From the NCBI RefSeq assembly GCF_026151205.1, contig NC_087074.1, positions 10,263,226-10,327,225 on the forward strand: a stretch of 64,000 bases of DNA, written 5' to 3'. Position numbers and translations under genes: made by a program. The notes beneath the pieces are model-generated. The model made no database searches, was not told the DNA's origin, and worked only from the letters and a program-made list of their open reading frames with translations. Position 1 is the first letter of the stretch; the number at the start of each line of letters is the position of its first letter. Origin of the DNA: Bolinopsis microptera (Eukaryota > Ctenophora > Tentaculata > Lobata > Bolinopsidae). Shown in pieces: positions 291-59,300 of the stretch.

Positions 291-1048
291 CCTGATAGAA
301 ATGTAGTGATCAAGAAAACAATATCTTCAATCTTACTTATCTATCCTCAATTTCATATGTAAAAAGTAATAATTAGTTGTTGATTTAGCATTTTTATCAA
401 ATTTAGCATAACTTTTCGTGAAAACCATGAGAGATACGCACCATTGGAATGTTTTTGATGCGATGGATTGAATGATTTTTTAAAAGCCTTTTGAACAGTA
501 TGAAGAAATAATAAGAACTTAAGGTCCCAAAATTTGATCCCCCAAGTGGTGTCAAAATCAAAAAAGAATAAATATTGTTTTCTCTTGACAGTACTACCAA
601 TTTTTGGTAAGACGGGTTCCTAGCTGCTTGTACCTGTAATTGGAGCATCGGTATTTGTTTATATTTGACCATTCCACGAAATGATTATTATAGACGGCCC
701 CAACGTTAATGTGGCCCCCACGTTAATGTGGCTCTTGCTATGTGTTGGTTCAGCCGAATTAATTATTATGTAATCAAGTTTATTTTTCGTTTTAAGTTAG
801 TATATCAAAATAATATGTCATTGTAATTTTGCATGGCTGAAATGTAACGCTTGATTTATATATATCATAATTAATTGAATTTTCAAATAAAAATAAATAA
901 ATACAGGGTGGGCCAAAAGTCAGTACCCATACGTTGGCCTTTATAGCTCAGTCACATAGAATTAAGATTCTAACATGTTCAACATATATTAATCAGTGAG
1001 GAAGGTCTGAAGCATCACCAAAACAAAGTGAGTAAGATAGAGGAACAT
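291..1048. other. AT-rich intergenic stretch leading into a LINE
   Basis: I see no gene here. A 13-bp direct doublet ACGTTAATGTGGC occurs at 703-715 and 720-732. The sequence CAGGGTGGGCCAAAAGTCAG near 905 resembles transposon ends, but I found no partner. The last ~100 bases may be the 5' UTR of the following retrotransposon. Confidence 0.4.
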
Positions 1049-4000
1049 ATGAGTGAAATTGCTAAGCAAAAAGCATCAGAGGATGGTTCAATCACTGACA
1101 TGGTAAAACAGACACATCAGTTGGTTGAACAACTCCAGAAGATCAGTGATAAGCCGGAGGTAACATCTCACAAGAACGAGGAGCTAATGAAAAGGATCGA
1201 AGACAAGCTCCAGGCACTAACCGAAAGTGAGACAACTTTCCAGACCCAACTTAACAGTTTAGGTAGTCAAATACAGGATCTTAAAGCATCTCCTCAATCC
1301 AGAGCACCACCTGTGGCTGAGAAACACTCTCCTCCACCACATACTCTCTTACAACCTGACCAGCCTACCCCTCATATAGCACATGACCAGGTGCCTGTAA
1401 CGGAAATCAAGCCAGATTTCATTCTGACAACTGAATCTGATAAAATTACTGCCTTTCTTCAGTCATGTTCCTTCGAATCAGAGAACGGTCACTCTGTCAT
1501 TTCATTTGGCAATCCCTACCACTACACTGGTTCTAAATCTTCAAAAAATGTTCCACCGATTCCTGAGGAACTTAAACCATTATTTGATGAAATGAACAAA
1601 GTACAAACTGAGCTGTACAATAAGTGCTACCCGGAGCAGCCCCACCTGACGGCCCCAGTTATTAACTCATGTCTCATCAACAGATATGATGGCCCTGATA
1701 GTCACCTACCTAATCATTCAGACCGTGAAGTGACCATCCATCCGGAATCCTCAATTTTTACTTTGTCTCTCGGCCAGAGTTGTAACATCAAGTTCACTGA
1801 ATGTGACTCTGGAACTGAATCTTCTTATGAATGTTTAGACCGCTCCTTGTACATAATGAGCCGTAGATCACAAGAAGTTTACAGCCATATGATTGAGCGT
1901 GGCTCAATATCAGATGGCATTAGATACTCGCTGACCTTTCGTGCTGTTAGCTGGACTAATAAAAATTGCACAAGTTTACATGGTGATTCAAACACAGGCC
2001 TCTTGCGTTTTGGGTCTGACAAGAGGGGTACCTTTGGCGAGCTCATGCCAGGTCAAAAATTCTGGGCTCCCAGAATTGATGATATCAACCCTGTGTCCTG
2101 CATGGGTTACGCCAGTCGCCAATGTAGTGCTCCACTGTGGGATCAATGACATGAGACAGACTGATGTTAAATCTGAGAATGATATTGCTGATTGCTACAA
2201 TAAACTGAAGCTGAAAATAAAACAAATTAAGAAGCTTAGCCCTAGCACTAGAGCTGTATTTGTTTGTCAGCTGCTTCCCACTAGGGACTTACAGCTGAAT
2301 TTTAAAGTTGATTCATTTAATAGACTTATTCATTTTGACCTGCTCCCTACATGTAAGGATGTTGTGCGTGTTCAGGGTTTTATGAAGTTCGCCTGCAACC
2401 GTGTTCTTGCGGACGAACTTTCAAAACAATTTGACAGAAATGGTCGACCTGATACAGAGGCACTAAATGAACTTAGAAAAATGATTGAATCATGCTCAAA
2501 AAAGAATGTTTACATACTAGGAGACTTCAACATTAATCTCCATGATGAAAACAGTAAACTCGTTCAAGACTTTGAAAACCTTATTCTAGGCCTAGGTTTA
2601 TCACCACTTATTTCTACGTCTACGCATCATAAACCAGGATGTAACCAATCATGCATTGACAACATACTCACCACCAACATCGAAAACTCTATCTGCTCTG
2701 GAACGATTAGTACCTGCATCAGTCACCATCATGCTGTATTTAACATATTCAACTCACCCCTAGTCAGTGCTGAGGATCATGAACAAAAGCACTTCCAGTA
2801 CTATGACTACTGTGCAACTAATGTGAACAAATTTGTCGAAGTACTAGACAATGAATTAACAAGTGATCCACCAGAAGATTTCAGTACTTTTTTCACTCTA
2901 TTCAATCATCAACTAGACAACGCATGTAAACTAGACCAGCCTAAGTGTTCTAAACGTACTGCTAAAAACAACCCATGGATTACATCTGGCCTAATTGCCT
3001 CTATAAATAGAAAACATGAGCTTTATGACCTATGGAAAAAGGCAGTTAAGAAGAAATGCCTCAGCAACTCTTCACCTAGCCATGCAGACTGTCTTACTCT
3101 TTGTTATAATTGTACAAATAAGGTAACACGTCATGAAGAATTTAAGGCACACCGGAAGTTATTAAACCACCTTATCAATTCTGCAAAACGTAAGTATCAT
3201 GGTGTTAAGATTACAGAATGTGCTGGAGATAGTAAGAAAACCTGGCAGATAATCAACGAACTACGTGGTAAGAAAAGACGTGAGATCAAGCCGAACTTCG
3301 TGATAAATAATGAACGTGTGATTAGTCGTCGTATAATTGCAAATGAGTTCAATAAATACTTTGCCTCTATTGCAGCTAACCTGAACGAAGCATACTCTGG
3401 TGACTATTTGAGAATAAATTCGCTGCCTTCATTTACTGACTACCTGCCAACATCAATTACGTCCAGTATTTATCTTTGGGATTCTGACTGTACTGAGATT
3501 AAAGAGACCATAACTAAAAAACGGGAAATCCAGTGACATACCTATTCATGTGATCAAGAAGTCATGCCAAATTACTGCACCGTACTTAGCTAGATACTTT
3601 AACAAATGCATGCAAGAAGGCCACTTCCCCGATGAATTGAAGACTGGGAGAATCAGCCCCATTTACAAAAAAGAAGATGAACAGCTATTAGAAAACTATA
3701 GACCAGTATCAACTCTACCTGTATTCGGGAAAATTCTAGAAAAGTTAATTTATAAGAGGCTCTATAGTTTCCTTACTTCCAAGGGGATAATACATGAAAA
3801 CCAGTTCGGCTTTAGGAAAGGACACTCCACCAGCCATGCACTGAACTACTCTGTAGAACATATAGAATCGTTAATTAGTAAAAAGCAACATGTCCTAGGG
3901 GTCTTCATCGATCTCTCAAAAGCCTTTGACACTCTAGATCACTGTAAACTAACTACTAAATTAAAAAACTATGGTATAAGAGGGAACGCTCTGAATCTTA

Positions 4001-5109
4001 TCTCTAGTTACTTGTCTAATAGGAAACAATTTGTAAATGTTCTAGATACCAAATCTGATGAATTACCGGTAGAATTTGGAGTCCCTCAGGGTAGTGTATT
4101 AGGACCTCTACTTTTCCTACTGTATATCAATGATATTTGCAATATAACTAATAAGGGTAAATTTGTCTTATTTGCAGACGATACTAATATATTTGTCGCT
4201 GCCGATTCGAAAAATAAAGCATACGAATTGGCTAATGAAGTACTACAGGCCGTAAACAAGTATATGGGAGTTAACCTACTGCACATTAATGTAAAGAAGT
4301 GTTGTTATATGTACTTTTCTCCCTCTAAACGTGATAATAGCGAATTAAATGCAGATATAGATAGCCAAAACTTGTCCATAAATAACAAAATAATTAAACG
4401 TGTAAGTCAGACAAAATTTCTTGGAGTAATCATTGATGATAAACTGAGCTGGAAACCACACATATTATCTCTCAATAAGAAACTAAGTAGTGCTTGTGGA
4501 CGTATCTACCGTATTAAGAAATGCTTGCCAGAATCACTATATAAGCAAATATATCATTCTCTCTTTGAATCACACCTAGGTTATGCTATTTCTGTCTGGG
4601 GAGGTATTCCCAATAATCAGTTGAAACCGCTATTTATTACTCAAAAGAAGTGTATCAGGATTCTCTTTGGAGACTTTGAAGTCTATGTAGACAAGTTCAA
4701 GACATGTGCTAGAGCAAGACCAATTAATTCTCAACGTCTAGGATCTGAATTCTATGTTAAAGAGTCCACCAAACCTCTATTCACAAAACACGAACTACTT
4801 GCTATGGAGAACCTATACAGATACCGTTGTTTAATGGAATTGTTTAAGATCATTAAGTCACGAGTACCAATTTCGTTATACTACCTATACGGCTTATCAA
4901 ATAGGAAAGATAATTTGTTAATCACGCCCTCTCCAACTAATCAATTTATGTACAAATCTGCATGGCTGTGGAACGAATTTCGTAAAGTTGGGCCGATGAA
5001 TTTCACCTCCCCTAGCAGCTCTGTCAAGAATTTGCTTAAACAGTCACTTCTAAGAGCTCAAAACAGGTATGGAACTGATTGGTGTGACAAAAATTTCACT
5101 GAATTCTGA
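1049..5109 (+). mobile_element. Degraded AlkB/SGNH-type LINE, copy 1
   Basis: A non-LTR retrotransposon broken into three reading-frame segments. Segment 1 (ATG 1049 to about 2130) has a coiled-coil-like start, then an AlkB-type 2OG-Fe(II) oxygenase with HSD, a distal SHM histidine and the RYSLTFR (RxxxxxR) motif, then an SGNH block GDSN. A frameshift near 2105-2120 moves to segment 2, which carries the GIND block of the SGNH hydrolase. Just after DRNGRPD the frame jumps directly into the C-terminal half of an APE-type endonuclease (GDFN, about 2520). Compared with the intact copy at 15313-20123, roughly 285 codons are missing: the ORF1 end, the PHD-like finger and the first half of the endonuclease. 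A second frameshift lies in an A-rich run near 3515. Segment 3 (to 5109) contains a reverse transcriptase with FIDLSKAFD, GVPQGSVLGP and FADDTN, plus a C-terminal domain with the family motif CARARP. The copy cannot encode the full protein set. Confidence 0.9.
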
Positions 5110-7208: not shown

Positions 7209-8576
7209 GTTAAGGGGGGGGGCCAATGGGTATTTTTTTGTGAAACTTGATTTCGAGATAGCAGTTGACCAACAAACTAGGACCAGTGACCGAACTTTTG
7301 AGGGGGTCCCGGACCCCAACCGCCAAACGGTGCGCGCAGGGCAGCCACGCCCATATTTGGTCCAAATTAGGCCCAATTTAGCCAAATACCCTGTACATGC
7401 CCCAAACCCAGGTTTATGGTGCTCTACTTGTAGCTAGTGGTCTCCTGAACTCGTATATGAAATTTCATCAAGATTGGACAAAAAATGACTGAGTTATGAG
7501 CCAAAAACCATATGCCCATATTTGGGCATACGCACCAAATTTGGTAGATTTCGTCCCATAAATTGGTCAAATATCAATATTTTTGAATGAAACTTACTTT
7601 ATATGAAAGGTAAGCCTAAACTACATATTCTCTGTAATTTATAGCTTTATATCTGTTTAAATGTGGATACTAAGGCGAAAAAACCACAAAAAATGAACTA
7701 AATTGCCCATATCTCGGTTCGCGATATTCGCGGAATTGATCTCACCAAAATTGTAACAACTCAATCAGTTTTCAAAATTTTTGCATGAAATTTTTGGAAT
7801 CGACTCGAAATCGCATTTCGACCTTATTTTAAGAACGGATTTTTGATTTAGGCCTCAAAAAAAAATTTGGCGGCCAAATTCCAAAATTATATTACAGAAA
7901 TTCAGAATTTGGCCGCCAAATTTTTTTTGAGGCCTAAATCAAAAATCCGTTCTTAAAATAAGGTCGAAATGCGATTTCGAGTCGATTTCAAAAATTTCAT
8001 GCAAAAATTTTGAAAACTGATTGAGTTGTTACAATTTTGGTGAGATCAATTCCGCGAATATCGCGAACCGAGATATGGGCAATTTAGTTCATTTTTTGTG
8101 GTTTTTTCGCCTTAGTATCCACATTTAAACAGATATAAAGCTATAACTTACAGAGAATATGTAGTTTAGGCTTACCTTTCATATAAAGTAAGTCTCATCC
8201 AAAAATATTGATATTTGACCAATTTATGGGACGAAATCTACCAAATTTGGTGCGTATGCCCAAATATGGGCATATGGTTTTTGGCTCATAACTCAGTCAT
8301 TTTTTGTCCAATCTTGATGAAATTTCATATACGAGTTCAGGAGACCACTAGCTACAAGTAGAGCACCATAAACCTGGGTTTTGGGCATGTTCAGGGTATT
8401 TGGCTAAATTGGGCCTAATTTGGACCAAATATGGGCGTGGCTGCCCTGCGCGCACCGTTTGGCGGTTGGGGTCCGGGACTCCCTCAAAAGTTCGGTCACT
8501 GGTCCTAGTTTGTTGGTCAACTACTATCTCGAAATCAAGTTTCACAAAAAAATACCCATTGACCCCCCCCCTTAAC
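7209..8576. repeat. Long near-perfect inverted repeat (two ~673-bp arms)
   Basis: The left arm (7209-7881) and right arm (7905-8576) are reverse complements with only a few mismatches, separated by about 23 bases. The outer ends share GTTAAGGGGGGGG, and the inner ends are GGCGGCCAAATTC and its complement. Transcription through it would give a very long hairpin RNA. I see no transposase, target duplication or tandem structure. It could be a foldback element or a head-to-head duplication of a non-autonomous element. The short mirrored reading frames in the two arms are not genes. Confidence 0.9.
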
Positions 8577-8877
8577 GAACAGTGTTCGTGTCCTTACACA
8601 ACCCCCTGTTACCTGTGTTTCTGTCGGGGTAGCCTAATTCATCCGTTAGAATCGCAGAGTTAGCGGAGCTCATGATATCTCGCGACGTATGCTGCATGAA
8701 CGGTGCAAGACTTGCGCCGTTTGTTTCAGCATCCAGTTGCGAGTGCTTGCCCATCGAAAACATGATTAGTGATTGTGGATTTTATTGATATTACTGATTA
8801 TCCATCATATTCAGTATTAATGTTATCCATTTTAATACTTTCAACACTACTATATAACAAATAATTTGAGTTCAGGG

Positions 8878-9891
8878 ATGGCTAACAATGGCGGGCAAAC
8901 GGGGCACATCGATAGTGACCCAGCCAGTACAGAAACTAACGAGAGAAAGGAGATATGCTTCTATTGTCAGAAGTATGATGAACCACTTGCGAGAAAGAAG
9001 ATTGTTTGGCTAGGTTGTTCAACATGTGAGAATTGGTGGCATAGTAGTTGTGCCGGTTTGGCTGGTCTAACCGTTACAGATGTCAAGAAGCTGACAGTGT
9101 GGAACTGCCACTTTTGTTTCGTTTTACCTGAGAAACTCAAATTTGAAAAACTTACTGATGACGTTGCTAAAGAACTGACAAGTGTTATACAGACTGCTGT
9201 CAGCGCCAGTGTGGAACAATCTATCCAGAAGGTTCTTGTAAATGATGTTGTTTCAGAAGCCAATAAGAAGATACACAAGAGTTGGGCTGAGATAGCCAGT
9301 GGGCAGCAGAAGAAATTGATAGCTGAAGTGTGTCAGCACGCAGCAGGCCCTGCAATAACCACCATCTCACAACAGATTGATGCTAACATGCAGGAAAGGA
9401 AAAAGCGGGAGAATAACATTGTTCTGTCAAACTTACCTGATGAAGATAAGGAAAATGAGAGTCAGGAACAACTAAAGGCTATCATCTGTCGACATGCAAC
9501 AGATCTTAACCAGAGTGACATTGTATCAGCAAAGAGAATAGGTGTATTTGGCAACGTCAACCGTACAAAGTACAGGGGAAGAATGGTCATTGCGAAGCTA
9601 AAGAGTGAAGAGTTAGCTACTTACACACACAACCATGGACGCGGGTTTGCTTATCATGGAAAAAAGAAAAGTGATGATGTATGGATAAATCCTGACTTGA
9701 TCAAGGCGGATCGAGATATCCGGTGGAACACACGCAATGCTAAACTGGAAACTGATAAGAGGACCAAAGTAACTGCTGACAAACCACCCAAAGAGGAACT
9801 GCCAACTGATGTGGCTTCTGTAACAAATGTAGAGCATGCGGATAATAAAGAAGATGTTGTCCAGAATGCTGTGAAGTCAAAAAACGAGTAG
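8878..9891 (+). CDS. CR1-like LINE ORF1 protein: PHD finger plus RRM-like nucleic-acid-binding region
   Basis: 337 residues from the ATG at 8878. The reading frame extends slightly upstream, but without an earlier ATG. Residues about 27-80 form a complete PHD-type C4HC3 zinc finger: CFYC, then CSTC, WWHSSC, and WNCHFC at the end. A helical stretch follows, then about residues 175-290 with ENNIVLSNLPDEDKE, KRIGVFG, GRMVIAKLKS and DVWINPDL. This pattern matches the RRM-like plus C-terminal domain of L1/CR1 ORF1 proteins, which bind element RNA. The tail is rich in Asp, Glu and Val. The product should package the element RNA; the PHD finger may bind chromatin or protein partners. ORF2 follows 32 bp after the stop in another frame. 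Confidence 0.85.
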   Translation: MANNGGQTGHIDSDPASTETNERKEICFYCQKYDEPLARKKIVWLGCSTCENWWHSSCAGLAGLTVTDVKKLTVWNCHFCFVLPEKLKFEKLTDDVAKELTSVIQTAVSASVEQSIQKVLVNDVVSEANKKIHKSWAEIASGQQKKLIAEVCQHAAGPAITTISQQIDANMQERKKRENNIVLSNLPDEDKENESQEQLKAIICRHATDLNQSDIVSAKRIGVFGNVNRTKYRGRMVIAKLKSEELATYTHNHGRGFAYHGKKKSDDVWINPDLIKADRDIRWNTRNAKLETDKRTKVTADKPPKEELPTDVASVTNVEHADNKEDVVQNAVKSKNE

Positions 9892-9923
9892 CGAGTTGCG
9901 TAAAGGAATCACAGGGTATCAGG

Positions 9924-12887
9924 ATGCTGTACACTAATGCTAATTCCCTGTACAATAAGATGACGGAACTCATGGTTTTGTCAGAGACTCACGACGTTCA
10001 GATCATTTGTGTGACAGAGTCCTGGCTAAATTCAGATATTGTTGACGCTGAAGTGTCTATTCCTAATTTCAACCTCTTTCGTGCAGACAGACCTAATGAT
10101 ACACGTTTTGGGGGATCTGCTATCTTTGTCCACAAAGCACTGAGGGTAGAACGATTGGATTGGTTTACTGGTCTTGAATCACTTGCGGTAAATATTGTAA
10201 TCGACTCTGTTAGGTTCAATGTTGTTTGTCTGTATCGGTCTACTTCACTTGTTGATATGAAGGACAATGCTGGCCTGTTAGGTGCTCTTGAACGTTTACC
10301 AGTTAATGCGGATGAAGAGTTGGTGATAGTTGGCGATGTGAACCTACCTCATGTTAACTGGGACAAAGGTTTAGTCGAGCGCCCACCAAACTCATGTGAC
10401 AGAAGGTTGCTGATGGAATCAGAATTCTTGAATGTCTTTACCAGGAAAGGTTTGAAGTGGTATGTCACTGGGTCTTCGACACGTGTCAGGAAGGTTGGTG
10501 ATACAACTCAATGCTCCTTGCTTGATCAGGTCTTCTGCAATAATGATTGTTTTGTAAATAATGTTGATATCCTTGCTCCTCTGGGTAAAAGCGATCATGT
10601 ATCACTACTGGTTGAGCTGAAAGTCAAAAACAATGTCGAGTTCCTTACATCTAAGAAGAAAAGCTGGTATAAGGTGGATCAGGACTTTGTTAACACACAG
10701 TCATCAGACATCAGCTGGGGGTACTCTAGAGAAGATCTTCAGGTCGAAGAGATGTGGGAAGAATTACACCAAAAACTTAGTGTCATTTCAGATCGTGTTC
10801 CAACCACCCACCTTAAAACAACTAAAGGTGGGGAGATCTTACAGAGGTTACCCTGGGATTGCTCTAGTCTGGTTAGGAAAAGAAAGTGCAAGGACCGGGC
10901 ATGGAAGGATTTTGACGAGGATCCTACGATGGTGATGTTTAACGCAGCCGAGTACGAGCAGCGGATGTACCAGAACGCTGAGATTAAGGCAAAGATCAAA
11001 TATGAGAATAAAGTGACTAAATTGTTTAAGTTAAATTGTAAACCTCTTTTTAATTACCTTAAATCTAAAAGTGTTTTAAGAAAATCTGTAGAAAGACTTA
11101 AAACAGATGATGGTTCTGAGACCAAGTCTCCTTATGAAACGGCAGAAGTGTTAGCTGATTTTTTCCAGTCAGTTTTTAAACCTGAACCTTTTGGCCCTCT
11201 GCCTCAAAATTGTTATACAGAATGTAATAATGATTACTTCTGGAGTAAATTTATGGTGCACCCTGAAAGTGTTGCCAAGATTTTGGGATCACTAGAGATT
11301 AGTAAAGCTATGGGTCCTGATGGTGTTCATCCTAGACTCCTGAGGTATTTAAGTGAGAACAGTTCCTTTGTGGATGCGGTTGTGTTGCTGTTTAGTGCCT
11401 GTGCTTCTGAGCAGTATATTCCTGAGGTATGGAAAACTGCCACTGTTGTGGCCTTGCACAAAAAGGGGTCAGTACATAGTCCTAATAATTACAGGCCTGT
11501 GTCACTGACTTGTATACTATGCAAAGCCTATGAGAAGCTTCTTAGGGAGTATATTCTCGATGGTGTTGAACAGGTGCTTAGTAGCACGCAGCACGGCTTC
11601 ATGAAGGGTCGGTCATGCTTATCTAACCTACTGGAGTCTATTGACGCTGTCAATGACTTGCTGGCTGAAGGTGGCTGTGCTGATATATTATACTTTGATT
11701 TCTCTAAGGCCTTTGATAGCGTACCACACCACCGTTTATTAGTTAAATTAAGAAATGTTGGTGTTCCTGAGGAGATAATTGGTATTTTAGAAAACTTTTT
11801 AGTAGGGAGGTCTATGAAAGTTAAAGTAGGAGATGAATTTTCTGAGATTAAGTATATACTTTCAGGAGTGCCCCAAGGCAGTGTTTTGGGACCATTGCTC
11901 TTTCTTTTATTTGTAAATGATCTTCCAGAAGGAATCAAAGCTATCATCAAACTTTTTGCTGATGATGTTAAAATGATTGTTAATCCTTTTATTAATCTAA
12001 CAGCTGATTTGAAGTTGCTAGAACTTTGGGAGTCTCGTTGGTGTTTAAATTTTAATGTAGATAAGTGTATGGTCATGCAAATTGGTTCTTGTAATCCTAA
12101 GAATCAGTACTTGTTTGGTGGTGTGCCTTTGAGATGTGTTGAAAGCGAGAAGGACCTTGGAGTTGTCTTTAACACCAGCTTCAACTTTGAGGGTCATGTG
12201 AGAAAGTGCATTGCTAAAGCTAATAGTACCATTGCCTGGCTTACAAGAAATATTATATCGAGGGAGAAAAGCGTTATGCTGGGCTTGTATAAGTCTTTAG
12301 TAAAGCCTCATATAGAGTATTGTTCACAGGCATGGGCTCCAATGGCTAGGCATGGAAACTGGTCACTGATTCTTGAATTGGAAGGTGTTCAAAGATCGTT
12401 CACCCGTATGATTGATGGATTGGGACTCATGACGTACAGAGAGAGACTGGATAAGCTGAACCTCACAACCCTGCTTGAACGCAGGGTTCGTGGAGATCTC
12501 ATTGAGATGTTCAAGATCCAGGAAGGCTTTGTGGGTTATGGTTCCGATTTATTTGGTCGTTCTGGTAGGACCGTTGCTGCTAGATCAAAGACTCATAGAT
12601 TCACCACAAATGAGACTGATTTCTTTGCCCAAAGGGTCTTGCGCTATTGGAACAGTCTACCACCACTTGTGAAAGCTAGTGAGTCAGTTACTGGTTTCAA
12701 GAGGGGATTAGATGCCTTTCGGCTTCATGGATATCGAGCTAATAAGCTTGGTCATCACTGGGAACTTTCATATGACATCTTTGATAGGATAGATGTGTCT
12801 GTGTCTAATAGGAATAGTTATGTAAGTTATATGAAAGATAATCCATTGGTAGCTAAGAGGAAGAAGGTTAATATCAAAGGTATTTAG
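9924..12887 (+). CDS. CR1-like LINE ORF2: APE endonuclease and reverse transcriptase
   Basis: 987 residues with no internal stop. The endonuclease occupies about residues 1-230 and keeps the N-terminal NANSL block, the catalytic VTESW (about 30), GDVN (about 136) and SDH (about 222). The reverse transcriptase follows with FDFSKAFD (about 590), GVPQGSVLGP and FADDV (about 678), so the catalytic aspartates are present. The C-terminal region (ISREK...KPHIEYCSQAW, LERRVRGDLIEMFKI) is typical of CR1/L2/Jockey relatives and lacks RNase H. Target-primed reverse transcription is its expected job. The frame is also open upstream of the chosen ATG as far as two stops near 9842, so a start upstream of 9924 or a frameshifted entry is possible. 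Confidence 0.9.
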   Translation: MLYTNANSLYNKMTELMVLSETHDVQIICVTESWLNSDIVDAEVSIPNFNLFRADRPNDTRFGGSAIFVHKALRVERLDWFTGLESLAVNIVIDSVRFNVVCLYRSTSLVDMKDNAGLLGALERLPVNADEELVIVGDVNLPHVNWDKGLVERPPNSCDRRLLMESEFLNVFTRKGLKWYVTGSSTRVRKVGDTTQCSLLDQVFCNNDCFVNNVDILAPLGKSDHVSLLVELKVKNNVEFLTSKKKSWYKVDQDFVNTQSSDISWGYSREDLQVEEMWEELHQKLSVISDRVPTTHLKTTKGGEILQRLPWDCSSLVRKRKCKDRAWKDFDEDPTMVMFNAAEYEQRMYQNAEIKAKIKYENKVTKLFKLNCKPLFNYLKSKSVLRKSVERLKTDDGSETKSPYETAEVLADFFQSVFKPEPFGPLPQNCYTECNNDYFWSKFMVHPESVAKILGSLEISKAMGPDGVHPRLLRYLSENSSFVDAVVLLFSACASEQYIPEVWKTATVVALHKKGSVHSPNNYRPVSLTCILCKAYEKLLREYILDGVEQVLSSTQHGFMKGRSCLSNLLESIDAVNDLLAEGGCADILYFDFSKAFDSVPHHRLLVKLRNVGVPEEIIGILENFLVGRSMKVKVGDEFSEIKYILSGVPQGSVLGPLLFLLFVNDLPEGIKAIIKLFADDVKMIVNPFINLTADLKLLELWESRWCLNFNVDKCMVMQIGSCNPKNQYLFGGVPLRCVESEKDLGVVFNTSFNFEGHVRKCIAKANSTIAWLTRNIISREKSVMLGLYKSLVKPHIEYCSQAWAPMARHGNWSLILELEGVQRSFTRMIDGLGLMTYRERLDKLNLTTLLERRVRGDLIEMFKIQEGFVGYGSDLFGRSGRTVAARSKTHRFTTNETDFFAQRVLRYWNSLPPLVKASESVTGFKRGLDAFRLHGYRANKLGHHWELSYDIFDRIDVSVSNRNSYVSYMKDNPLVAKRKKVNIKGI

Positions 12888-13007: not shown

Positions 13008-14678
13008 TATTTATTTATTGACATCCTTCAGTCTCCAAAACGAGGTGTGAAGGTAAATTAACTTTGAGCCTGTTTTGGCGACTGCTTAATCGATGGGCAA
13101 GTAGGTATTTGTTTTTTAGCAGTGTTGAACATTGAAACAATTATAAAATGTTTATTTTTATCTTATATAACCAATAACGTACAATATGAATGACATATGC
13201 TATAGTGACGTAACATATATAGTGCAAAGAATTAGTAACTTGCGAGATGTGATTTAATGATAATCGACATTAACATTTTGTAGTTTACAGTTGCACAATG
13301 TTGGCGTCGATTGTTACTAACATTTATCTGAATTTAATACAAGTACATGTCACATATAAATTGGGTAGCTGAATGAAACTCGTGCCTCAAAATTTTCCGT
13401 TATTAGCATTGCAGTGTCCACGCCCTATACTGCGTTAACGACCGAAATTTTCCCAATATGCAATTATTATTTTGCTTCTAAAATTCTCTGATAATTAATA
13501 ATATATCGTGACATGTAATTGTAAGATAACAAACCTCGCGCGCGCGGCGCTTACATCTGCACCTGAGAATCTCTCAGCAATGTGTGGCTGTCTGCGCGGC
13601 GGGCTCTGTATTGTGTATATAGCTGAATTTAAATTTAGATTTATTTGTAAATGTATAATAATGTTAAATATGTATTGATTGTTTTGTGGAAAATAAAAAT
13701 TTTGTTTTACTAAAATTTTGTTTTACTAATAGTAAGGTACATTCCATCATACGATCGCAATCACGTACTTGCTGTTTAATTGATGTTTTAAGTTTATTGA
13801 ATAGCAGATCGAGCTTTGGTGTATATTATATAGATTTTGATTCTAATTTTAGTCTAGTATTTGAACAATTTGACGGATGTTACTCGTCTAAATTTCTTCG
13901 AAGTAGCGCGCGCCGCTTTCTTCTCGAAATGTTGGCCCGACGGCACGAGCTACGAAGTAGCGCGCGCCGGGCCAGATCATTAATAAAACAAAAGTTAATA
14001 AAACAAAAGTTAAATTTATTACCAATTATTCAATCAATACATATCATAAATTCTAATAATGGAAACACAATGCAAAATGGATGTCTTAAACTATAATTTT
14101 GTTGTGACTAATAATCTATTGACTTTCAAAGTTGAATTTTAGTTAAGTATGAAATGCCACCACATCATAGTTAGGGTAAAATGTTATTTTTAAATTTAAA
14201 AATTGAGAAGATTGCTCTATGGCTTAAAATTTAAAATTCTAGCAAAAGATATCTTATTTTTAAATAGTTGGTTACAGTTTATGACAGTACTGGCATGACT
14301 AGTTTTATTGTGGCTGGTAAAAGGACCCAGTTGCCTGTAAGGGCTTTACCGAACCCCAGGGGACCACAATGTGATAAGATCAGGCCAGATGTTTCTATGT
14401 AGAGCAATTTATTTATTTTGGAGCTATGGTTATATGCTATTGATGGTGGTCATGTTTAAAGCTCAGTTTATCCTTGTGTGCTAATTATCCATCCAGATGC
14501 TTAGTGATGTGGGTAAATCATGCCCTTCTACGATATATAATGTTTGACCATAAATTTGTTTTTACCACATAAACTGTGGCACTAATGTCAATTAACAATA
14601 TTTACATTCATTGATATTTAAAGCGTGTTTTTTCCCCAGCACTACTACACAACAAAAACCTGTCGGCCCACCGAGGAA
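13008..14678. other. AT-rich spacer with local GC-rich palindromes
   Basis: No convincing gene. A GC island with CGCGCGCGCGG lies near 13540. The sequence CGAAGTAGCGCGCGCCG occurs twice (about 13899 and 13952). Exact short doublets occur at about 13697-13730 and 13980-14011. The 136-codon frame over 13686-14096 is built from these repeats and is not credible as a gene. Confidence 0.4.
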
Positions 14679-14731
14679 ACACGGTCGCAGAACAAAGAGC
14701 CCAATTGTGCTCCTCTATTCTGTGACCGTGT
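14679..14731. repeat. Hairpin-forming inverted repeat
   Basis: ACACGGTCGCAGAA (14679-14692) pairs with TTCTGTGACCGTGT (14718-14731), with one G-T-type mismatch across a 25-base loop that itself has GAGC/GCTC ends. It could be part of a MITE or a structured RNA. No wider context is recognised. Confidence 0.5.
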
Positions 14732-15312
14732 GTATCTACTATAAACTAGCTAAATGTACTAAGAAAATTTAATGGAATCATTACAGTCGTTTGATAAGTT
14801 CACGTGTCAAAGTAATGTTCATGGTGATCATATTTTTGGATCCCCGGTGGGCAAACACTCGTCCGAAAGGTCAAGGCAAACCTGTCGATGTTTCACCATA
14901 CGAAGTAAGGCGATTTGAACATATACTCAGCTTGCAACTCAACCCATGGGACGAGACGTCGTGAGCCTCAAAATTCTTCAAAATATATAGCACATACCTA
15001 GTTAGCAAACACTAAACACAACATACATACGATACCAAATAATGTATAATGCCATTACTACATTCGAAAGAAAATATATCTGCTATCTAATTTAAAAAAT
15101 TGTAGAATAAACCTGAAGAAGGAGAAGGAGAGAGGGGTTTGGGAGAGGCAGAGTAGGAAAACAACAGGATCCTGTGCCGCAGGATTTTAAAATTTGTTGT
15201 ATGATGATTCGTTTTGTTTCGTCTCTTAGATTAATATAGGTCTGATACCCTTGTCATGGTTCTTTGCAATAACACCGTGGTTTACTCATATGATTAAGTT
15301 TAGTTAATTAAC
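14732..15312. other. Spacer and probable 3' UTR of the minus-strand LINE
   Basis: The part next to 15312 should be the 3' UTR of the following minus-strand element. No poly(A), terminal repeat or target duplication could be fixed. A purine-rich patch lies at about 15115-15150. Confidence 0.4.
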
Positions 15313-18300
15313 CTATTTCAATGATAATTCATTTGCATCAAAGTTGTAACTGCACCATAGTTGTCTGTCATATTTAGATTGTAGTTCTAACAAAGCTTTC
15401 TTAAGATTATTCTTGAATATACTGATAGGAGTGGAGAAGTCTATTTCACTTGTTGACTTACGGCAGTGATTCCAAATACTGGTTGATTGGTAGATGAATA
15501 GTGAGGACGGAGTGGGTGGGATGAAGTAGTTGTCTCGTCTTGGTGACCTGTTGAATAAAGAGAACATTGAGACTGGTGATTGGAACTTATTAATTTTAAA
15601 CATTTCCAGTAAACAGTGCAACTTATGAAGATTGTGGACAGTCAGGAAGTTATACTCGTTACAGATTGGTTTACTGTGTTCTAGTTCAAAGAAATCTTTG
15701 CCTAACATCTGCTTGATAACTTTACCGGTCTTATCCCTAGTGATAGGCCTTACTCTGGCACATGTTTTGAACTTATTGAAGTACACATCATTATCACCAA
15801 AGAGAATTCTTATGCATTTCTTTTGTGTTTTAAATATGGCTTCTAGTTTATTATTTGATACACCTCCCCAAACAGATATTCCATAACATAGGTGTGATTC
15901 AAAAAGGGTGTGGTACAGGTCCTTATATAGTTTTTTAGGTACACAGCGTCTAATTCCACATAGTCTACCAATCTCACATTTCAATTTACTATTTAACGCT
16001 CTTAAGTGAGCATCCCAGTTCAGTTTTTGGTCAATAATGACTCCAAGAAACTTAGTTTCCTCTACCTTTTTAATTATTATATTATTCAGTGTCAGTTCTA
16101 ATTCATTGGTGTTTGAATCTGGTTCATTTCTACAGTTCGGCTTAAAGTGGATATAACAACATTTCTTTGTGTTGATATGCAGCAAGTTACTCTTCATATA
16201 CTGATGAACAAGTTTAAGAATTTTGTTAGCTTTGCAGTAAAGTGTTTTTATACATTTATCTACAACAAATATGTTGGTGTCATCGGCAAAAAGTATAAAC
16301 TTACCTAGATCTGATACTCTATATATTTCATTGATGTAGATAATGAAAAGCAAGGGACCTAATACTGACCCCTGAGGCACACCAAATATTACAGACAGTT
16401 TTTCGGATTCTTCTCCAAGTACTGAAACATATTGCTGTCTATTAGAGAGGTAACTGGCTATTAATTTATTTGCAGTCCCTCGAATTCCATAATCATTCAG
16501 TTTTTTAAGCAGTTTATCATGACAGATTGTATCAAAAGCTTTACTTAAATCAATGAAGATGCCTAGTACATGATTTTTATCTCTTAGTGATTTTTCAATG
16601 TAGTCGACAGAGAAGTTAAGTGCATGGCTTGTGGAATGATTTTTTCTGAAGCCATATTGATTTTCATATAATAATCCTTGCGACTGAAAGAAACTGTAAA
16701 GCCTGGAGAATATGATCTTCTCAAGTATTTTACCAAATATCGCTAAGGTTGAGATAGGCCTGTAATTTTCAAGAAGCTCAGCATTTTCTTTCTTATATAT
16801 TGGACTTATTTTACCTACTTTTAGGTCGTCTGGAAAAACTCCCTGTTGCATACATTCGTTATACAATACCGATAGTAGTGGACTAATTATACCTGATACT
16901 GCCTTTACTATATGTACTGGTATATCACTAGCCTTGCCATTCTTAAGTTCCGATATGATCTTAGCCACCTCTTCAGGTGAGCAGTCATGTAGATATATAT
17001 TAGCTGTATTCGTTTTAGGTAAGAGGTCACAGAAACTTGGAAGCTGATTAATTTGTATTTCTCCTAGTTCTGTGTAGGCTGCATTAAGGTTAGATGCTAG
17101 GGATACAAAATACTTATTGAATTCATTCGCTATAACTCTGCGATTAGTTATCTTTTCATTGTCTATGGTAAATATAGGTCTGATATCACGTTTCTGTTTG
17201 CCACGAATTTTATTTATAAGTTCCCAGGTTTTCTTGGAGTTTCCCTGAGTTTCAAGAAACTTGTCAGAATAATATTCAGATACAGCCTTTTTACGAACCT
17301 TTTTTAGAGCCTTTCTATATTCTTTGTAGTCATCATAACGGTTTCTTTTATTACAGCAGATAGAACACAGGCATGTGCCCCCTTTTGTGTCAGTTTCGCC
17401 ATGTTTACACTTAACTTTCCTGACTTTCGCCCAGGCATCATACAGTCCATGGCAGTGGTTTACTGAGGCTATAATCCCGCCAGTAATCCAGGGGTTGTTC
17501 TGCATAGTGCGCTTAGTGGTTTTGGGTACAGCTAGTTTGCAGGTTTCGTCAATGCTGTTTTTAAAGATATCATGAAAGTTGGTAAAATCTATAATTGGTT
17601 CATTATCTAGTTTATTACCCAAGACTTCAGCAAATTTATCAGTGTTTGACTTACAATAGTCATAATATTGAGTGTGCTTATGAATATTTTTGGTCTTGCT
17701 AATTTTCCAGTCAGATATATTAAATATAGGGAGGTGGTGAGATATGTGGTCAGTTATGACTCCAGAGGCAGTAACAGAGTCTAGGTCATTTGTAATGATG
17801 TTGTCGATGCACGAGGCATTACATCCAGGCTTTTCATGAGTTGCTAATGATATCAATGGGAAGAAGCCTCTACTGAATAGGACGTCTTCATACTGTGCAA
17901 TAATGTTACTGTGTTTACCATGGAGATTAATGTTAAAATCACCTGCAATGTGTGTATGTTTTGGTGCTTTATCAAGGATTGACGACAATTCTTGGAGAGC
18001 TTGCTCAGCATTGCCACTTGGAGGGCGGTATATTACTCCTATAGAAGTAGAATTTCCTATACTTCCTATGGTTACAAAGAGGGTTTCTAGATTTTCTGTT
18101 ACTTGTGACAGGTTGTTATTTTTAACAGCATTAAAGGAGTTAAGGACATATAGAGCTACTCCTGAGCCTTTTACTTTCGAGTCAAAGGTATCTTGATAGA
18201 AGCTCTCATAGCCTGTGAGTTCGTACAAGTTTTTCAATTCAGGGCCTACATTTGTTTCAGCAAGACCAATTACAGAGAATTTGTTAGTAAATCTAGCTAT

Positions 18301-18696
18301 TTCAATTGCCAGCGAGTCAAAGTTTGATTTGTTGCCATCAAGATTTTGAAATATTAGTGAATTTTGCACTTGTAATTCGTGAGCAAAGGTGTGGTTTATG
18401 CCTTTTACAGAATATGAGTCACAGCTTTCAAGTACCTCAGAGATTTTACGTGTAACATCATCTGCATCAGTGTTATCATCATTGTCATCATTCAGAAGCT
18501 TGAATGGGTTATAACGGATTACTGCTAGGTGGAGACAATTATTGCAGTACAAGTCAGCTTTTTGATTTTGTTTGTCACTGGTGTTATAGCATCTAGAGTG
18601 AATGGGACAGTTACAGTTGTAGCATTCAAATATAGATTGACCTAAATAGATACTTTTTAAACAGTGGGCACAGACCTCTTTTTTAAGAACATTCAT
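15313..18696 (-). CDS. AlkB-family LINE ORF2: PHD-like finger, APE endonuclease, reverse transcriptase
   Basis: 1127 residues, uninterrupted. Residues 9-54 form a PHD/RING-type zinc site: C9, C12, C25, C28, H33, C36, C51, C54. The endonuclease spans about 110-330 with FQNLDG (about 117), LAETN (about 145), RPPSG, GDFNIN (about 252), SCIDNI and SHHLP (about 323). The reverse transcriptase has FIDLSKAFD (about 717), GVPQGSVLGP (about 772) and FADDTN (about 800). The C-terminal domain carries KFKTCARVRP and a late IWNHC block shared by all family copies. Placing the zinc finger in ORF2 differs from the CR1-like element here, where the PHD finger is in ORF1. The start ATG overlaps the ORF1 stop as ATGA (18696-18693), so translation is probably coupled. 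Every catalytic block I can read is present, so the copy may be competent. Confidence 0.9.
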   Translation of the reverse strand: MNVLKKEVCAHCLKSIYLGQSIFECYNCNCPIHSRCYNTSDKQNQKADLYCNNCLHLAVIRYNPFKLLNDDNDDNTDADDVTRKISEVLESCDSYSVKGINHTFAHELQVQNSLIFQNLDGNKSNFDSLAIEIARFTNKFSVIGLAETNVGPELKNLYELTGYESFYQDTFDSKVKGSGVALYVLNSFNAVKNNNLSQVTENLETLFVTIGSIGNSTSIGVIYRPPSGNAEQALQELSSILDKAPKHTHIAGDFNINLHGKHSNIIAQYEDVLFSRGFFPLISLATHEKPGCNASCIDNIITNDLDSVTASGVITDHISHHLPIFNISDWKISKTKNIHKHTQYYDYCKSNTDKFAEVLGNKLDNEPIIDFTNFHDIFKNSIDETCKLAVPKTTKRTMQNNPWITGGIIASVNHCHGLYDAWAKVRKVKCKHGETDTKGGTCLCSICCNKRNRYDDYKEYRKALKKVRKKAVSEYYSDKFLETQGNSKKTWELINKIRGKQKRDIRPIFTIDNEKITNRRVIANEFNKYFVSLASNLNAAYTELGEIQINQLPSFCDLLPKTNTANIYLHDCSPEEVAKIISELKNGKASDIPVHIVKAVSGIISPLLSVLYNECMQQGVFPDDLKVGKISPIYKKENAELLENYRPISTLAIFGKILEKIIFSRLYSFFQSQGLLYENQYGFRKNHSTSHALNFSVDYIEKSLRDKNHVLGIFIDLSKAFDTICHDKLLKKLNDYGIRGTANKLIASYLSNRQQYVSVLGEESEKLSVIFGVPQGSVLGPLLFIIYINEIYRVSDLGKFILFADDTNIFVVDKCIKTLYCKANKILKLVHQYMKSNLLHINTKKCCYIHFKPNCRNEPDSNTNELELTLNNIIIKKVEETKFLGVIIDQKLNWDAHLRALNSKLKCEIGRLCGIRRCVPKKLYKDLYHTLFESHLCYGISVWGGVSNNKLEAIFKTQKKCIRILFGDNDVYFNKFKTCARVRPITRDKTGKVIKQMLGKDFFELEHSKPICNEYNFLTVHNLHKLHCLLEMFKINKFQSPVSMFSLFNRSPRRDNYFIPPTPSSLFIYQSTSIWNHCRKSTSEIDFSTPISIFKNNLKKALLELQSKYDRQLWCSYNFDANELSLK

Positions 18697-20123
18697 ACTG
18701 GAGGCTGATAGCCTTCAACATGAGGCTGTCCTCCGGCGGCATGAGAATAAAGTGTTGAACCAACCTTACCGTCCCTCCTCCCCCTCTTCCTCCTATCAGT
18801 CCCTCCATGCATCCTAACGAGGACAGTATTACGGATTAAAGTAGCAAGTTTGGCCACTCCCTTCCAATTAAGGTGCAGGTAATCCGTCCGGCCATATTTG
18901 TCAAACTCCCTGGACAAGGTTAGGCAAAGTAAGCCAGTGTTATTATCCAGGAAGTCATCAAAGCCATCAACGAACTGGACACCAAAGTTTTTGGGAAGTA
19001 GCTCACGACGAATAAGCTCTATAAAGTATAGAACTTTCCTATTTAAGTCAGTATTTCGAGTTGGTAAAAGTGGACAAAGAAATACTTGAGCAGTTGGATT
19101 GGCCTCTTGGATTTGCTCAATCTTGAATTCTAAAAGACTAAATATAGCAAAAATTTCACGTTGAGATTTAACAGATGGTCTTCTAACATCATTAATACCA
19201 CACATAATAACAACGTTCTTGTATCCACATGCAAGATATGGGTTAATGTCATCTATTGTCGGAGTCCAAACATTCCGACCAGGCAGCCATTTACCAAAGC
19301 TCCTCTTGTGATCCTCTCCAAATTTCATACCTGATCCGTTTGAATCAGAGAAGATACAAGTACTAGCACGATTCTTTCCGTCTATTGATCTGAAAGTGAA
19401 ACTATATCGTACTGCACCAGTGACTGACCCCTTCTGGATAGAGTGCTTGTAGTGAGCCTGACTCCTTCTGGTCATCCTGTAAACTGACCTGGGGGTACAC
19501 TTGTGTGTGTGAACTGAGTTGTTCATTTCAGTGAAGAGGACTTCGCATTCACCTCCAATGGAAAGAGTCAATATGCTAGATTCTGGATGTATCACTGGTT
19601 CGTTGTCAGAATGTTCTGGCAGGTAACCCTCGCCTTCTTCGTAGCGGTTGATCAACACGCTATTCATTACAGGATTTTCTTCTGCACAGAACTTCTCATT
19701 AATTTTCAGGACGAGCGCAGCCAGTTTCTCCGGTATTTCTGCATTTTTCTTGTTCTCATCCCTGGATCCACTGTATTTGTATTTCTCTCCAAAAGAACAC
19801 ACTGAGTGCCCATTCTCCTTGCTGAACTGAAGAGATTCGCAGTACTGGAGAAGATCTGATTCAGCATCAGTGTCTATGAATTCTTCCACTGTGTCTGCCA
19901 CAGGTTTTTCTTCATTTTTAAATATGGTCTTTGATAGAAGGTGCTTATCATTTAATGCAGAGCCAGATGATGGTGGTGGTGTTGGCTTATCGTGAGGAAT
20001 TGTAGTCTGTTGGGTAGACAGTTGGTCTAGAGACTGCTTGATTTCCTTCAGTTCAAGAGAAATGTGCGGTTCCTGCCGAGCATGTTCATCAAGCTGGTCA
20101 ATGATATCATGTACAATGGTCAA
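18693..20123 (-). CDS. AlkB-family LINE ORF1: AlkB-type dioxygenase fused to SGNH hydrolase
   Basis: 476 residues. Residues 1-60 are helical and then Pro/Ser-rich. Residues about 95-250 form an AlkB-type 2OG-Fe(II) dioxygenase: SVLINRY, then H171-S-D173, then SSILTLSIGGE, then H227, then R239-x5-R245. The spacing of the three iron ligands and the two arginines matches AlkB, and the block order is closest to the AlkB domains of RNA viruses. Residues about 255-430 form an SGNH (GDSL-like) hydrolase: SDS at 259-261, GIND at 309-312 and DYLH at 414-417. Glycine of the usual GDS block is serine here; the degraded copy 1 still has GDSN. The C-terminus is Arg/Lys- and Gly-rich. SGNH esterases occur in CR1 ORF1 proteins. 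The AlkB part suggests removal of alkyl or methyl marks from element RNA, which is inference. Confidence 0.85.
   Translation of the reverse strand: MTIVHDIIDQLDEHARQEPHISLELKEIKQSLDQLSTQQTTIPHDKPTPPPSSGSALNDKHLLSKTIFKNEEKPVADTVEEFIDTDAESDLLQYCESLQFSKENGHSVCSFGEKYKYSGSRDENKKNAEIPEKLAALVLKINEKFCAEENPVMNSVLINRYEEGEGYLPEHSDNEPVIHPESSILTLSIGGECEVLFTEMNNSVHTHKCTPRSVYRMTRRSQAHYKHSIQKGSVTGAVRYSFTFRSIDGKNRASTCIFSDSNGSGMKFGEDHKRSFGKWLPGRNVWTPTIDDINPYLACGYKNVVIMCGINDVRRPSVKSQREIFAIFSLLEFKIEQIQEANPTAQVFLCPLLPTRNTDLNRKVLYFIELIRRELLPKNFGVQFVDGFDDFLDNNTGLLCLTLSREFDKYGRTDYLHLNWKGVAKLATLIRNTVLVRMHGGTDRRKRGRRDGKVGSTLYSHAAGGQPHVEGYQPPV
18700..18734 (-). promoter_or_regulatory. Possible termination-reinitiation structure before the ATGA overlap
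   Basis: On the minus strand, GGAGG (18734-18730) pairs with CCTCC (18704-18700), enclosing AGCCT (18727-18723) pairing with AGGCT (18714-18710). The nested hairpin ends four bases before the ATG of ORF2 and just before the overlapping stop-start ATGA. Overlapping stop-start signals with nearby RNA structure couple ORF1 and ORF2 translation in some LINEs such as SART1. The role here is inferred from position. Confidence 0.4.
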
Positions 20124-33732: not shown

Positions 33733-34752
33733 TTAAACTTTCGTTTCAACCATCGTCTGTGCACACTGACGCTGCATCACAAATAGTTCAAACCTCTTAG
33801 CTTGTCCAAAAATCCACTTTCTAAAATCAGCCATCCGCCAGAAATAAAGACATGGGTTGAGGGCTGAGCACACAGCAGTAAAGAAGAACTCCCCCAGCAG
33901 GTAATCGTACCAGTACAGGAACTGGTTGTCCGGATAGTCTAGTTTAAACCAGAACCTCACTGCACTCATTGCTGTGATAACGAACATGGGCAGGTGACAG
34001 ACCAGGTATATGGCCGTGAAAAGGGTGATGGTGACGGAGGCTTTCCAGAACTTTCTGTTGTTGTCCCCGCATTGTAGTTTCCTCTTCTTGATCAGTGGGA
34101 TGATGGAGAGGATGAAACTGATAAAGACAGAAAGGGGGAGAAGAAGGAGAATGAGGAGCTTAGTGACAATGTACGGGTACCACAACCAGTCGTTCGGGTC
34201 CATAAATATAGGATTACAGTAGACCACCACGGAGGAGTATATGATCCACGTAGACTTAAAAGCAAACAATGCCACGTAGAAGGAGACCATTAGAGCAACA
34301 TAAGCTGCGCATATTCTCTTGATGGGGAGCTGGGAAATGTTATAGTGGGGAGCGTATATTGCTATTGTCCGGGTCATGCTGATCACAAAGGCCATGAAGG
34401 CCAGGTAGCGCTCTATAAAATAGAAAGCAGTGGCCCAGGCTGCACAGGATGTGTAGTCACCAAATAACATGGGCTTCCTGTCATTTAGCAGGGAGGATAT
34501 GACGGGGAATGCTATGGCGCACGTGCAAATATCAATGGAGCTGACAGCAAAGTAGAGAACATCATAGATTGTCCTGGTTTTTCTCTTCCAGAAGTAGATA
34601 GCTGCAGGGATGTTGCCAGTTAGACCCACCATCATGCACAGAGCGAGACATCCTGCTATAATGTGATCTGCTCTCTTGCTGTAGCTGTTTCCTTCTTCTC
34701 CTTCTTCCATGTAGACGTGACCTGGTTCTGTCATCTCTACGCTGAATTTCAA
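33733..34752 (-). CDS. Class A (rhodopsin-like) G-protein-coupled receptor
   Basis: 339 residues in one exon, with seven hydrophobic segments. TM1 has G46-N47. TM2 has D74 and P83 (SSIDICTCAIAFP). C103 and C179 are placed for the TM3-ECL2 disulfide. TM5 has P206. TM6 has C252-H253-L254-P255, where His replaces the usual Trp of CWxP. TM7 has N299-P-C-L-Y303, an intact NPxxY. The DRY motif at the end of TM3 is T127-R128-T129, keeping only the arginine. The C-terminus ends ETKV, a class I PDZ-ligand pattern. The N-terminus is short and acidic, which fits a peptide or small-molecule ligand. Loss of Asp in DRY and of the toggle Trp suggests altered activation. No ligand class can be assigned. It is intronless and lies opposite to the coiled-coil gene. 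Confidence 0.9.
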   Translation of the reverse strand: MKFSVEMTEPGHVYMEEGEEGNSYSKRADHIIAGCLALCMMVGLTGNIPAAIYFWKRKTRTIYDVLYFAVSSIDICTCAIAFPVISSLLNDRKPMLFGDYTSCAAWATAFYFIERYLAFMAFVISMTRTIAIYAPHYNISQLPIKRICAAYVALMVSFYVALFAFKSTWIIYSSVVVYCNPIFMDPNDWLWYPYIVTKLLILLLLPLSVFISFILSIIPLIKKRKLQCGDNNRKFWKASVTITLFTAIYLVCHLPMFVITAMSAVRFWFKLDYPDNQFLYWYDYLLGEFFFTAVCSALNPCLYFWRMADFRKWIFGQAKRFELFVMQRQCAQTMVETKV

Positions 34753-45910: not shown

Positions 45911-46274
45911 CCTCACCGTCTGCATCGAGGAAAATCACAAGAAAATACAATTAAACGTGTATCAAATAAGCTTGTATTTGTAATAGCTGTCAGTTCTGAC
46001 TTATGAATTATCAGTATAAACAGTAACGAACAGAGATCATACATGATAAGATATGAGCACATTAATATCACATGTAAAGGTACCAGTGATACCACACCTG
46101 GTACGCTATTACCTCTGTTATACTGCTACTCAACAAACTGTTCTCCTGATCAGCTGATCTGCGAACTCCTTGTAGAATAACGGAATGTAGGTCAGGACTC
46201 AGAACTCAGGCACTTTCTAATGCATGATATGTATGAGATAGGAAGATGAGTAGTGCAGTGACACTTATGTGACA

Positions 46275-46460
46275 CTGCTGAGGTACCGTGACGTCACCAC
46301 TGTGACAATGCTGAGGTACCGTGACGTCACAACTGTTACACTGCTGAGGTACCGTGACGTCACCACTGTTACACTGCTGAGGTACTGTGACGTCACCACT
46401 GTTACACTGCTGAGGTACCGTGACGTCACCACTGTTACACTGCTGAGGTACCGTGACGTC
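46275..46460. repeat. 33-bp minisatellite with CRE palindrome, about 6 copies
   Basis: Units of the type CTGCTGAGGTACCGTGACG followed by TCACCACTGTTACA. Each complete unit holds TGACGTCA, the CREB/ATF site, and usually GGTACC. A second array of the same unit lies at 47090-47247. Confidence 0.95.
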
Positions 46461-46469
46461 CCTTACAAT

Positions 46470-57185: not shown

Positions 57186-59300
<2,115 letters not shown>

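Follow-up and report, generated by a model that had tools for sequence, protein, structure and literature searches.

We report a long interspersed nuclear element (LINE) in which, as judged from its sequence, the first open reading frame (ORF1) is an AlkB dioxygenase joined to an SGNH-type esterase. The element lies in a stretch of 64,000 nucleotides of the ctenophore Bolinopsis microptera (contig NC_087074.1, positions 10,263,226 to 10,327,225), hereafter the window, and belongs to a natural set of diverged families, some of them very young, that pair AlkB with an esterase and extend to a DNA transposon. Tentatively, and with more doubt than confidence, we propose that the AlkB-SGNH pair is a transferable accessory module of several LINE lineages and rolling-circle Helitrons of one animal lineage, captured on one or two occasions and handed on from element to element, since elements that go through single-stranded intermediates would profit from a dealkylating enzyme and a lipid esterase of their own. 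The set makes testable the question of whether a mobile element repairs or demethylates the intermediates through which it moves, and its AlkB domains may supply new ALKBH3-like enzymes.

The AlkB and SGNH domains of the window LINE

The extent of the element was taken from blastn comparison with other copies. Homology of the relatives starts at 20113-20117 and stops at 13979-13981, so the copy is placed at about 13980-20115 on the minus strand (about 6.1 kb) and considered 5′-truncated, which corrects the bounds of 15313-20123 proposed in the initial annotation. Its features, followed by those of two further LINEs of the window, are listed below.

13980..20115, minus strand: 5′-truncated AlkB-SGNH LINE of the window family (group A), from blastn homology limits
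18693..20115, minus strand: ORF1 fragment within a 476-aa open frame (frame 18693-20123), with no start of its own, and missing the PHD-like finger and some of the pre-AlkB region
19383..19829, minus strand: AlkB (2-oxoglutarate (2OG)-Fe(II) dioxygenase) domain, about residues 99-247 (our limits; Pfam 111-245), from PF13532 and PDB profile
19605..19613, minus strand: iron ligands H171-S-D173, invariant in 12 ORF1s
19443..19445, minus strand: third iron ligand H227, invariant in 12 ORF1s
19389..19409, minus strand: 2OG-binding R239-x5-R245 (RYSFTFR), with invariant Args and a Ser where host and E. coli AlkBs have Asn
18816..19361, minus strand: SGNH hydrolase, about residues 255-436 (our limits; Pfam 295-422), with SDS, GIND and DYLH, from PF13472 and PDB profile
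18693..18696, minus strand: ORF1 stop and ORF2 start overlapping as ATGA, by direct reading
15313..18696, minus strand: ORF2, 1127 aa, with N-terminal Cys-rich part, APE-type endonuclease and reverse transcriptase, from Pfam
13980..15312, minus strand: 3′ untranslated region, about 1.3 kb (98.4% match to locus L067 over 15767-13981)
1028..5109, plus strand: second AlkB LINE (group A), frame-broken, with an ORF1 piece at 1028-2149 and further pieces in 1941-3536 and 3550-5109
1511..1942, plus strand: AlkB domain of the second element, a complete stretch (PF13532, 2.1e-16)
8866..12887, plus strand: contrast LINE, with ORF1 of 341 aa (weak PHD match) and ORF2 of 987 aa

The AlkB assignment rests on several lines of comparison. 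The window ORF1 matches PF13532 over residues 111-245 (5.1e-15; 56.6 bits against a cut-off of 31.2), and a phmmer search of PDB sequences with the window protein returns ALKBH2 (6.5e-5) and, weakly, ALKBH6. A profile of 12 ORF1s reaches ALKBH3 (5.7e-29), ALKBH2 (5.9e-24), ALKBH8 (3.8e-11) and E. coli AlkB (7e-9), with weaker matches to ALKBH6 (0.0063) and a 2OG-Fe oxygenase family protein (0.003); ALKBH5 and FTO are absent from the 42 PDB sequences that it matches at E ≤0.01. ALKBH3 is likewise the top PDB match of each of three single proteins (L038, L035 and L050).

The esterase part has its catalytic blocks, S, (G)xND and DxxH, in the window protein, with N311 and H417 invariant and D414 nearly so among the 12 ORF1s. 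Its PF13472 match (5.6e-6) scores 27.4 bits, below the cut-off of 32.9; among the structures matched by the 12-ORF1 profile are SGNH hydrolases, one of them the esterase 4c1b, itself encoded by an ORF1 (E 0.0043). Pfam, PDB profiles and conserved residues together uphold the AlkB-SGNH fusion described in the initial annotation.

Conservation points in the same direction. The 12 ORF1s, which share 20-94% identity with the window protein, have 17 invariant columns, among them H171, D173, H227, R239, R245, N311 and H417; for 17 random columns of 476 positions, the chance of including all five ligands would be about 3e-8, although similarity in AlkB or ORF1 was also what brought these families into the sample. 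The five ligands are also common to 28 aligned AlkBs (20 LINE, four Helitron-like, three host and E. coli AlkB), rows that were extracted with a motif fixing HxD and the Arg pair and leaving the second His free. Among 30 loci of a protein search, HSD is kept in all 26 that cover the HxD site, and the second His and the Arg pair in 28 of the 29 that cover them, the exception being L027, which is full of stops. Since these 30 copies are close kin, it is the 12-row result that carries weight, and the 12 rows also contain close pairs.

Ratios of nonsynonymous to synonymous substitution (dN/dS) in the AlkB domain were computed by NG86 for 14 pairs, nine of which yielded estimates (0.055, 0.069, 0.127, 0.132, 0.138, 0.148, 0.154, 0.200 and 0.350); in the remaining five, synonymous change was zero or saturated. 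The value of 0.350 rests on seven differences, dS exceeds 1 in two other pairs, and L035 enters into two pairs, as does the window copy. On these estimates, the AlkB cofactor ligands are kept under purifying selection. The initial annotation had looked to dN/dS and to ligands across copies for evidence of conservation, and had named loss of the ligands or want of a match to the AlkB fold as grounds for doubt; its numbering of all five ligands is correct and, at the level of sequence, the ligands are kept and the profiles match solved AlkB proteins.

The element as a whole has two ORFs, with a reverse transcriptase and an APE-like endonuclease in ORF2, as expected of an APE-type LINE. The reverse transcriptase matches PF00078 (RVT_1) above its cut-off (8.7e-37); the endonuclease and Cys-rich matches (PF14529, PF03372 and PF00130) all lie below their own, the endonuclease models scoring 21.4 bits against 27.4 and 16.8 against 24.5. 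ORF2s of other loci were identified by eye. The ATGA overlap, a layout that would suit termination-reinitiation, recurs in six of eight other loci read (L003, L011, L030, L031, L032 and L056); the junction is CTGA in L033, and ATGA is absent at the place read in L034. At the 3′ end of the element ACTTTTGTTTTATTA is present twice, and the stretches compared for a target-site duplication have no common word longer than 5 bp.

Both frames of the window copy are open, as first described, but its ORF1 is a fragment and not a whole gene, with no in-frame ATG before residue 153. Stop-to-stop ORF1 frames run to 709-716 aa in the window family and to 742-751 aa in relatives L030-L034 (in L031 the first Met comes late). 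Full-length frames exceed the window ORF1 at the N-terminus by about 240 residues, with a PHD-like Cys pattern. In full-length relatives, a PHD-like finger and a probable coiled coil are likely to precede AlkB: PF00628 matches L032 and L039 below its cut-off and is not among the Pfam matches of the L031 ORF1, and in the window family both features were judged by eye.

By sequence identity, the window copy is recent, and near-identical copies keep open ORF1 frames, in line with the earlier suggestion that the family has been active. It is 99.95% identical to L002 over 1963 bp, and a second pair, L004 and L005, reaches 99.94% over 3240 bp; this latter match sets in near the 5′ end of the element and leaves out the flanks, suggesting that the two copies inserted separately. 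The two other copies noted earlier in the window are the same kind of element but belong to other families, 73-74% alike over matching DNA. A Pfam scan of ORF1 of the 8866-12887 LINE gave neither an AlkB nor an SGNH match.

Distribution and descent of the pair

The genome searched comprises 264.65 Mb in 232 contigs. A protein search gave 940 first-look candidates, of which 89 were scored (42-100% identity), and a PF13532 search gave 587 candidates, of which 150 were scored, with at least 151 matches, every match listed lying above the cut-off. Thirty AlkB places were then sampled to span frame lengths, not at random; in our reading 27 of them lie in mobile elements (21 LINE, 6 Helitron-like), divided into LINE groups A (8), B (6), C (3) and D (4) and the Helitron-like group (6), and three are host genes (L042, ALKBH2-like; L043 and L059, ALKBH3-like). 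L047, L048, L051, L061 and L063, with no ORF2 within the fetched stretch, were assigned by likeness, L061 being a short fragment; L064 is frame-broken, and the ORF2 of group D (L038) was identified visually.

A PF13472 search (424 candidates, 150 scored) added six loci. Five of them (L068-L071 and L073) make up a fifth group of LINEs (E), in which the AlkB, placed ahead of SGNH, is divergent, and the sixth, L072, has SGNH without AlkB; PF13472 is above its cut-off in L068, L069, L071, L072 and L073. Among the four group E proteins scanned, PF13532 is above cut-off in L073 only, and the others (L070 was unscanned) were recognised by motif and alignment. AlkB is common, though not universal, among the LINEs of this genome. 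Relatives outside it were not confirmed in viral and prokaryotic collections, which have little bearing on other animals. In the ORF2s of group E, NPGP follows hydrophobic stretches, without the usual DxE.

The pair also occurs in Helitrons, in the opposite order to that of the LINEs. Within its fetched stretch, L036 has a single 1899-aa frame with SGNH (residues 9-177; 29.9 bits, below cut-off), AlkB (residues 428-560; 4.8e-22), DUF6570 and Helitron_like_N (PF14214; 2.6e-22); L035 has SGNH, AlkB and DUF6570, and its fetched stretch ends before the remainder. The Helitron domain is shown in L036 alone, and L045, L046, L049 and L058 were assigned by likeness to L035 and L036. By the coordinates of two genome searches, each of the four has its SGNH match upstream of AlkB; the two matches lie in open frames of equal length in L045 and L046, and SGNH is in another or interrupted frame relative to AlkB in L049 and L058. 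In L035 (1835-2338), the Helitron frame is preceded by a short one with a 2A-type motif, DVETNPGP.

In trees where the host AlkBs are ALKBH2/3 (ALKBH1 and ALKBH4-8 being left out), AlkBs of LINE groups A, B and C and of the Helitron-like elements group apart from the host sequences (support 99/95), and they do so again, with the same support, when group E is added. Group D falls outside this assemblage and also differs in domain order, and may therefore represent a second capture; a single origin of all mobile-element AlkBs, group D included, is neither shown nor rejected by the sequences (76/31). The Helitron AlkBs are nested in LINE group A in one tree (97/96), a nesting that is unstarred in the tree with group E. 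In approximately unbiased tests, placing the Helitrons outside LINE groups A-C was not rejected (p 0.133), nor was group E outside A, B, C and Helitrons (p 0.236); holding LINE groups A-D together without Helitrons gave p 0.037, and groups A-E without Helitrons p 0.066.

Trees of the other domains add to this. The SGNH tree recovers the groups, with weak support for A (73/88) and E (86/76), and leaves its backbone and deeper branches unresolved, so it is silent on whether AlkB and SGNH moved as a unit. The endonuclease tree unites ten group A rows (99/98) and does not recover B as one group; C and D are single rows, and long branches lead to D and to the AlkB-less LINE. In our view AlkB is distributed over distinct LINE lineages.

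Synonymous divergence between L030 and L033 rises from 0.035 in the N-terminal part of ORF1 to 0.34 in AlkB and 2.3 in the C-terminal part, and in L032 and L034 it likewise shifts several-fold between the three parts. Such jumps would make these ORF1s mosaic, by recombination or template switching. In L019 (1-2730), a continuous 909-aa frame joins an L044-like ORF2 endonuclease part to a window-family AlkB-SGNH ORF1 part.

Readings of the AlkB domain

N1-methyladenine and N3-methylcytosine form mainly on single strands and stall polymerases. ALKBH2/3 and AlkB remove m1A and m3C from DNA or RNA, with single strands favoured or accepted. The RNA template of a LINE and the DNA intermediate of a Helitron are single-stranded; Helitrons move as DNA and have no RNA genome. 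The reading we favour, with a confidence that stops just short of even, is that the predicted activity of the AlkB domain is to dealkylate the element's own single-stranded intermediate. ORF1p would multimerise on element RNA through its coiled coil. Contact with lipids or membranes would fall to the esterase part, a role proposed before for ZfL2-1, and oxidative dealkylation of the single-stranded nucleic acid bound by ORF1p to the AlkB part. An ALKBH2/3-like enzyme travelling with a LINE RNA template or Helitron single-stranded DNA could keep the intermediate copyable, and AlkB might also supply the nucleic-acid-binding domain that was lacking in the esterase-type ORF1 proteins known in 2013. 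The genomes of plant RNA viruses are single-stranded too, and their AlkB is proposed to repair RNA (PMC9289625). It is the ALKBH3/2-nearest profile, together with the single-stranded intermediates and this viral parallel, that leads us to prefer repair of the intermediate, and the sharing of the pair by elements with different life cycles fits it somewhat better.

Several observations weigh against this preference. The window protein alone matches ALKBH2 and, weakly, ALKBH6, but not ALKBH3, and an AlphaFold2 model with two in-window AlkB copies as its only alignment rows has a pLDDT of 40 and is uninformative. All 24 mobile-element AlkBs aligned, and five group E frames besides (29), have Ser for the Asn of RxNxTxR, which is present in the three host genes and E. 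coli AlkB; this Asn is typical of AlkB, ALKBH2 and ALKBH3 without defining them, and FTO has Ser. The position beside the iron Asp, which governs base preference in AlkB (D135; ALKBH2 D174; ALKBH3 D194), varies among D, N, S, R and G in the element AlkBs, so the substrate may differ. The SGNH call is weaker than that of AlkB: PF13472 matches six of eight proteins scanned, always below cut-off, and the other two (L038 and L039) have no PF13472 match, their SGNH being read by eye. Finally, L072 and the 8866-12887 LINE have no AlkB, which is accordingly not needed for retrotransposition as such.

The FTO-like Ser of RxSxTxR would fit better with activity on N6-methyladenosine (m6A), and hence with counter-defence, the proposal of the initial annotation: AlkB would clear element RNA, or host transcripts, of m6A or a similar host mark, and the element would thereby escape recognition, decay or sequestration. 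An orchid Ty3/Gypsy AlkB has m6A demethylase activity in vitro (PMC9289625), and the purifying selection on AlkB agrees with such a role too. We nevertheless regard counter-defence as rather unlikely: the 12-ORF1 profile is nearest to ALKBH3/2, with no ALKBH5 or FTO among its 42 matches, and the Helitron frame that also holds the pair would offer only mRNA or DNA as a target. L1 in human cells, moreover, benefits from the m6A writer and is suppressed by ALKBH5 (PMC7873242).

AlkB might instead have been captured mainly as an RNA- or DNA-binding domain for an esterase ORF1, with catalysis secondary. None of the esterase ORF1 proteins in RepBase in 2013 had an RRM or other structural RNA-binding domain, and Schneider 2013 asks how proteins of this type bind RNA (PMC3905857), a gap that such a capture would fill. 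Pure binding would need no cofactor ligands, and the iron and 2OG ligands are invariant across families with 20-48% identity to the window ORF1, which makes this reading improbable.

Less plausible again is a role at the insertion site, where the domain would act as a DNA demethylase or in alkylation repair on target DNA, on 6mA or on damaged chromatin, and not on the intermediate. The ALKBH2/3-like type of the domain is compatible with it, and chromatin contact is suggested by the weak PHD matches in ORF1 of L032 and L039 and by a C1 match, also weak, where ORF2 begins, but ORF1 of the AlkB-less LINE of the window has a weak PHD match as well. The truncation of the window copy and the broken frames of one relative in the window would agree with a decayed passenger domain; even so, matches to Pfam and PDB are significant, the ligands are invariant, dN/dS is far below 1 and near-identical copies keep open ORF1 frames, and chance resemblance or decay is accordingly rejected.

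Other features of the window and relation to known systems

Elsewhere in the window, inverted repeats of 934 bp at 57369-58302 and 62873-63806 (99% complementary, about 4.6 kb apart) adjoin a long CA/TG tract, and a second pair of 659 bp occupies 7209-7867 and 7918-8576 (98% complementary, 50 bp apart). Arrays of 33-bp tandem repeats lie at 31775-32368 (near-perfect), 46197-46524 and 47025-47319. By eye, EGF/laminin-type receptor-like frames with duplicated blocks are recognisable at 39499-45698 on the minus strand, and a GPCR-like frame at 33733-34752.

Among the papers listed by our literature search, which covered titles and the beginnings of abstracts and did not extend to RepBase, preprints or most subscription journals, where such a case may be on record, none reports AlkB in a LINE or Helitron. 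Known LINE ORF1 types include CCHC, RRM, PHD and esterase (PMC4120745), and a search of the text of that paper does not return 'oxygenase'. Rotifer long terminal repeat (LTR) elements have captured an esterase (PMC5408684), in a text from which 'AlkB' is absent.

The nearest LINE systems are the CR1/L2 elements with esterase (type IV) ORF1, such as ZfL2-1, which have two ORFs and a coiled coil followed by SGNH, sometimes with a zinc finger (PMC4120745, PMC3905857). The window element is like them in this layout and unlike them in carrying an AlkB domain of about 150 residues ahead of the esterase; because AlkB precedes the esterase, the definition of type IV does not apply as it stands, and we file the ORF1 as a variant of that type, its coiled coil being read by eye.

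Enzyme capture into mobile elements has several other precedents. The AlkB ORF of a Phalaenopsis Ty3/Gypsy element is likewise encoded by a retrotransposon and keeps its cofactor ligands, but that element is of the LTR type, its AlkB is a separate ORF and its authors call it ALKBH5-like (PMC9289625); the elements described here are LINEs and Helitrons, with SGNH in the same frame and a profile nearest to ALKBH3/2. Plant RNA viruses of the Alphaflexi-, Betaflexi- and Closteroviridae (PMC9289625) resemble them, by description only, in that their single-stranded genomes encode an AlkB. TRAS and Jockey LINEs have acquired viral RNA helicase domains (PMC5563155), a comparable gain of an enzyme by LINE proteins, with a different domain. 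The Texim genes of fish Helitrons encode an SGNH protein related to the CR1 esterase and are carried with the Helitron, as is SGNH here (PMC4021074). Texim is a separate, intron-containing gene, described in a text in which neither 'AlkB' nor 'oxygenase' appears, whereas L036 holds SGNH, AlkB and the Helitron domain in one frame.

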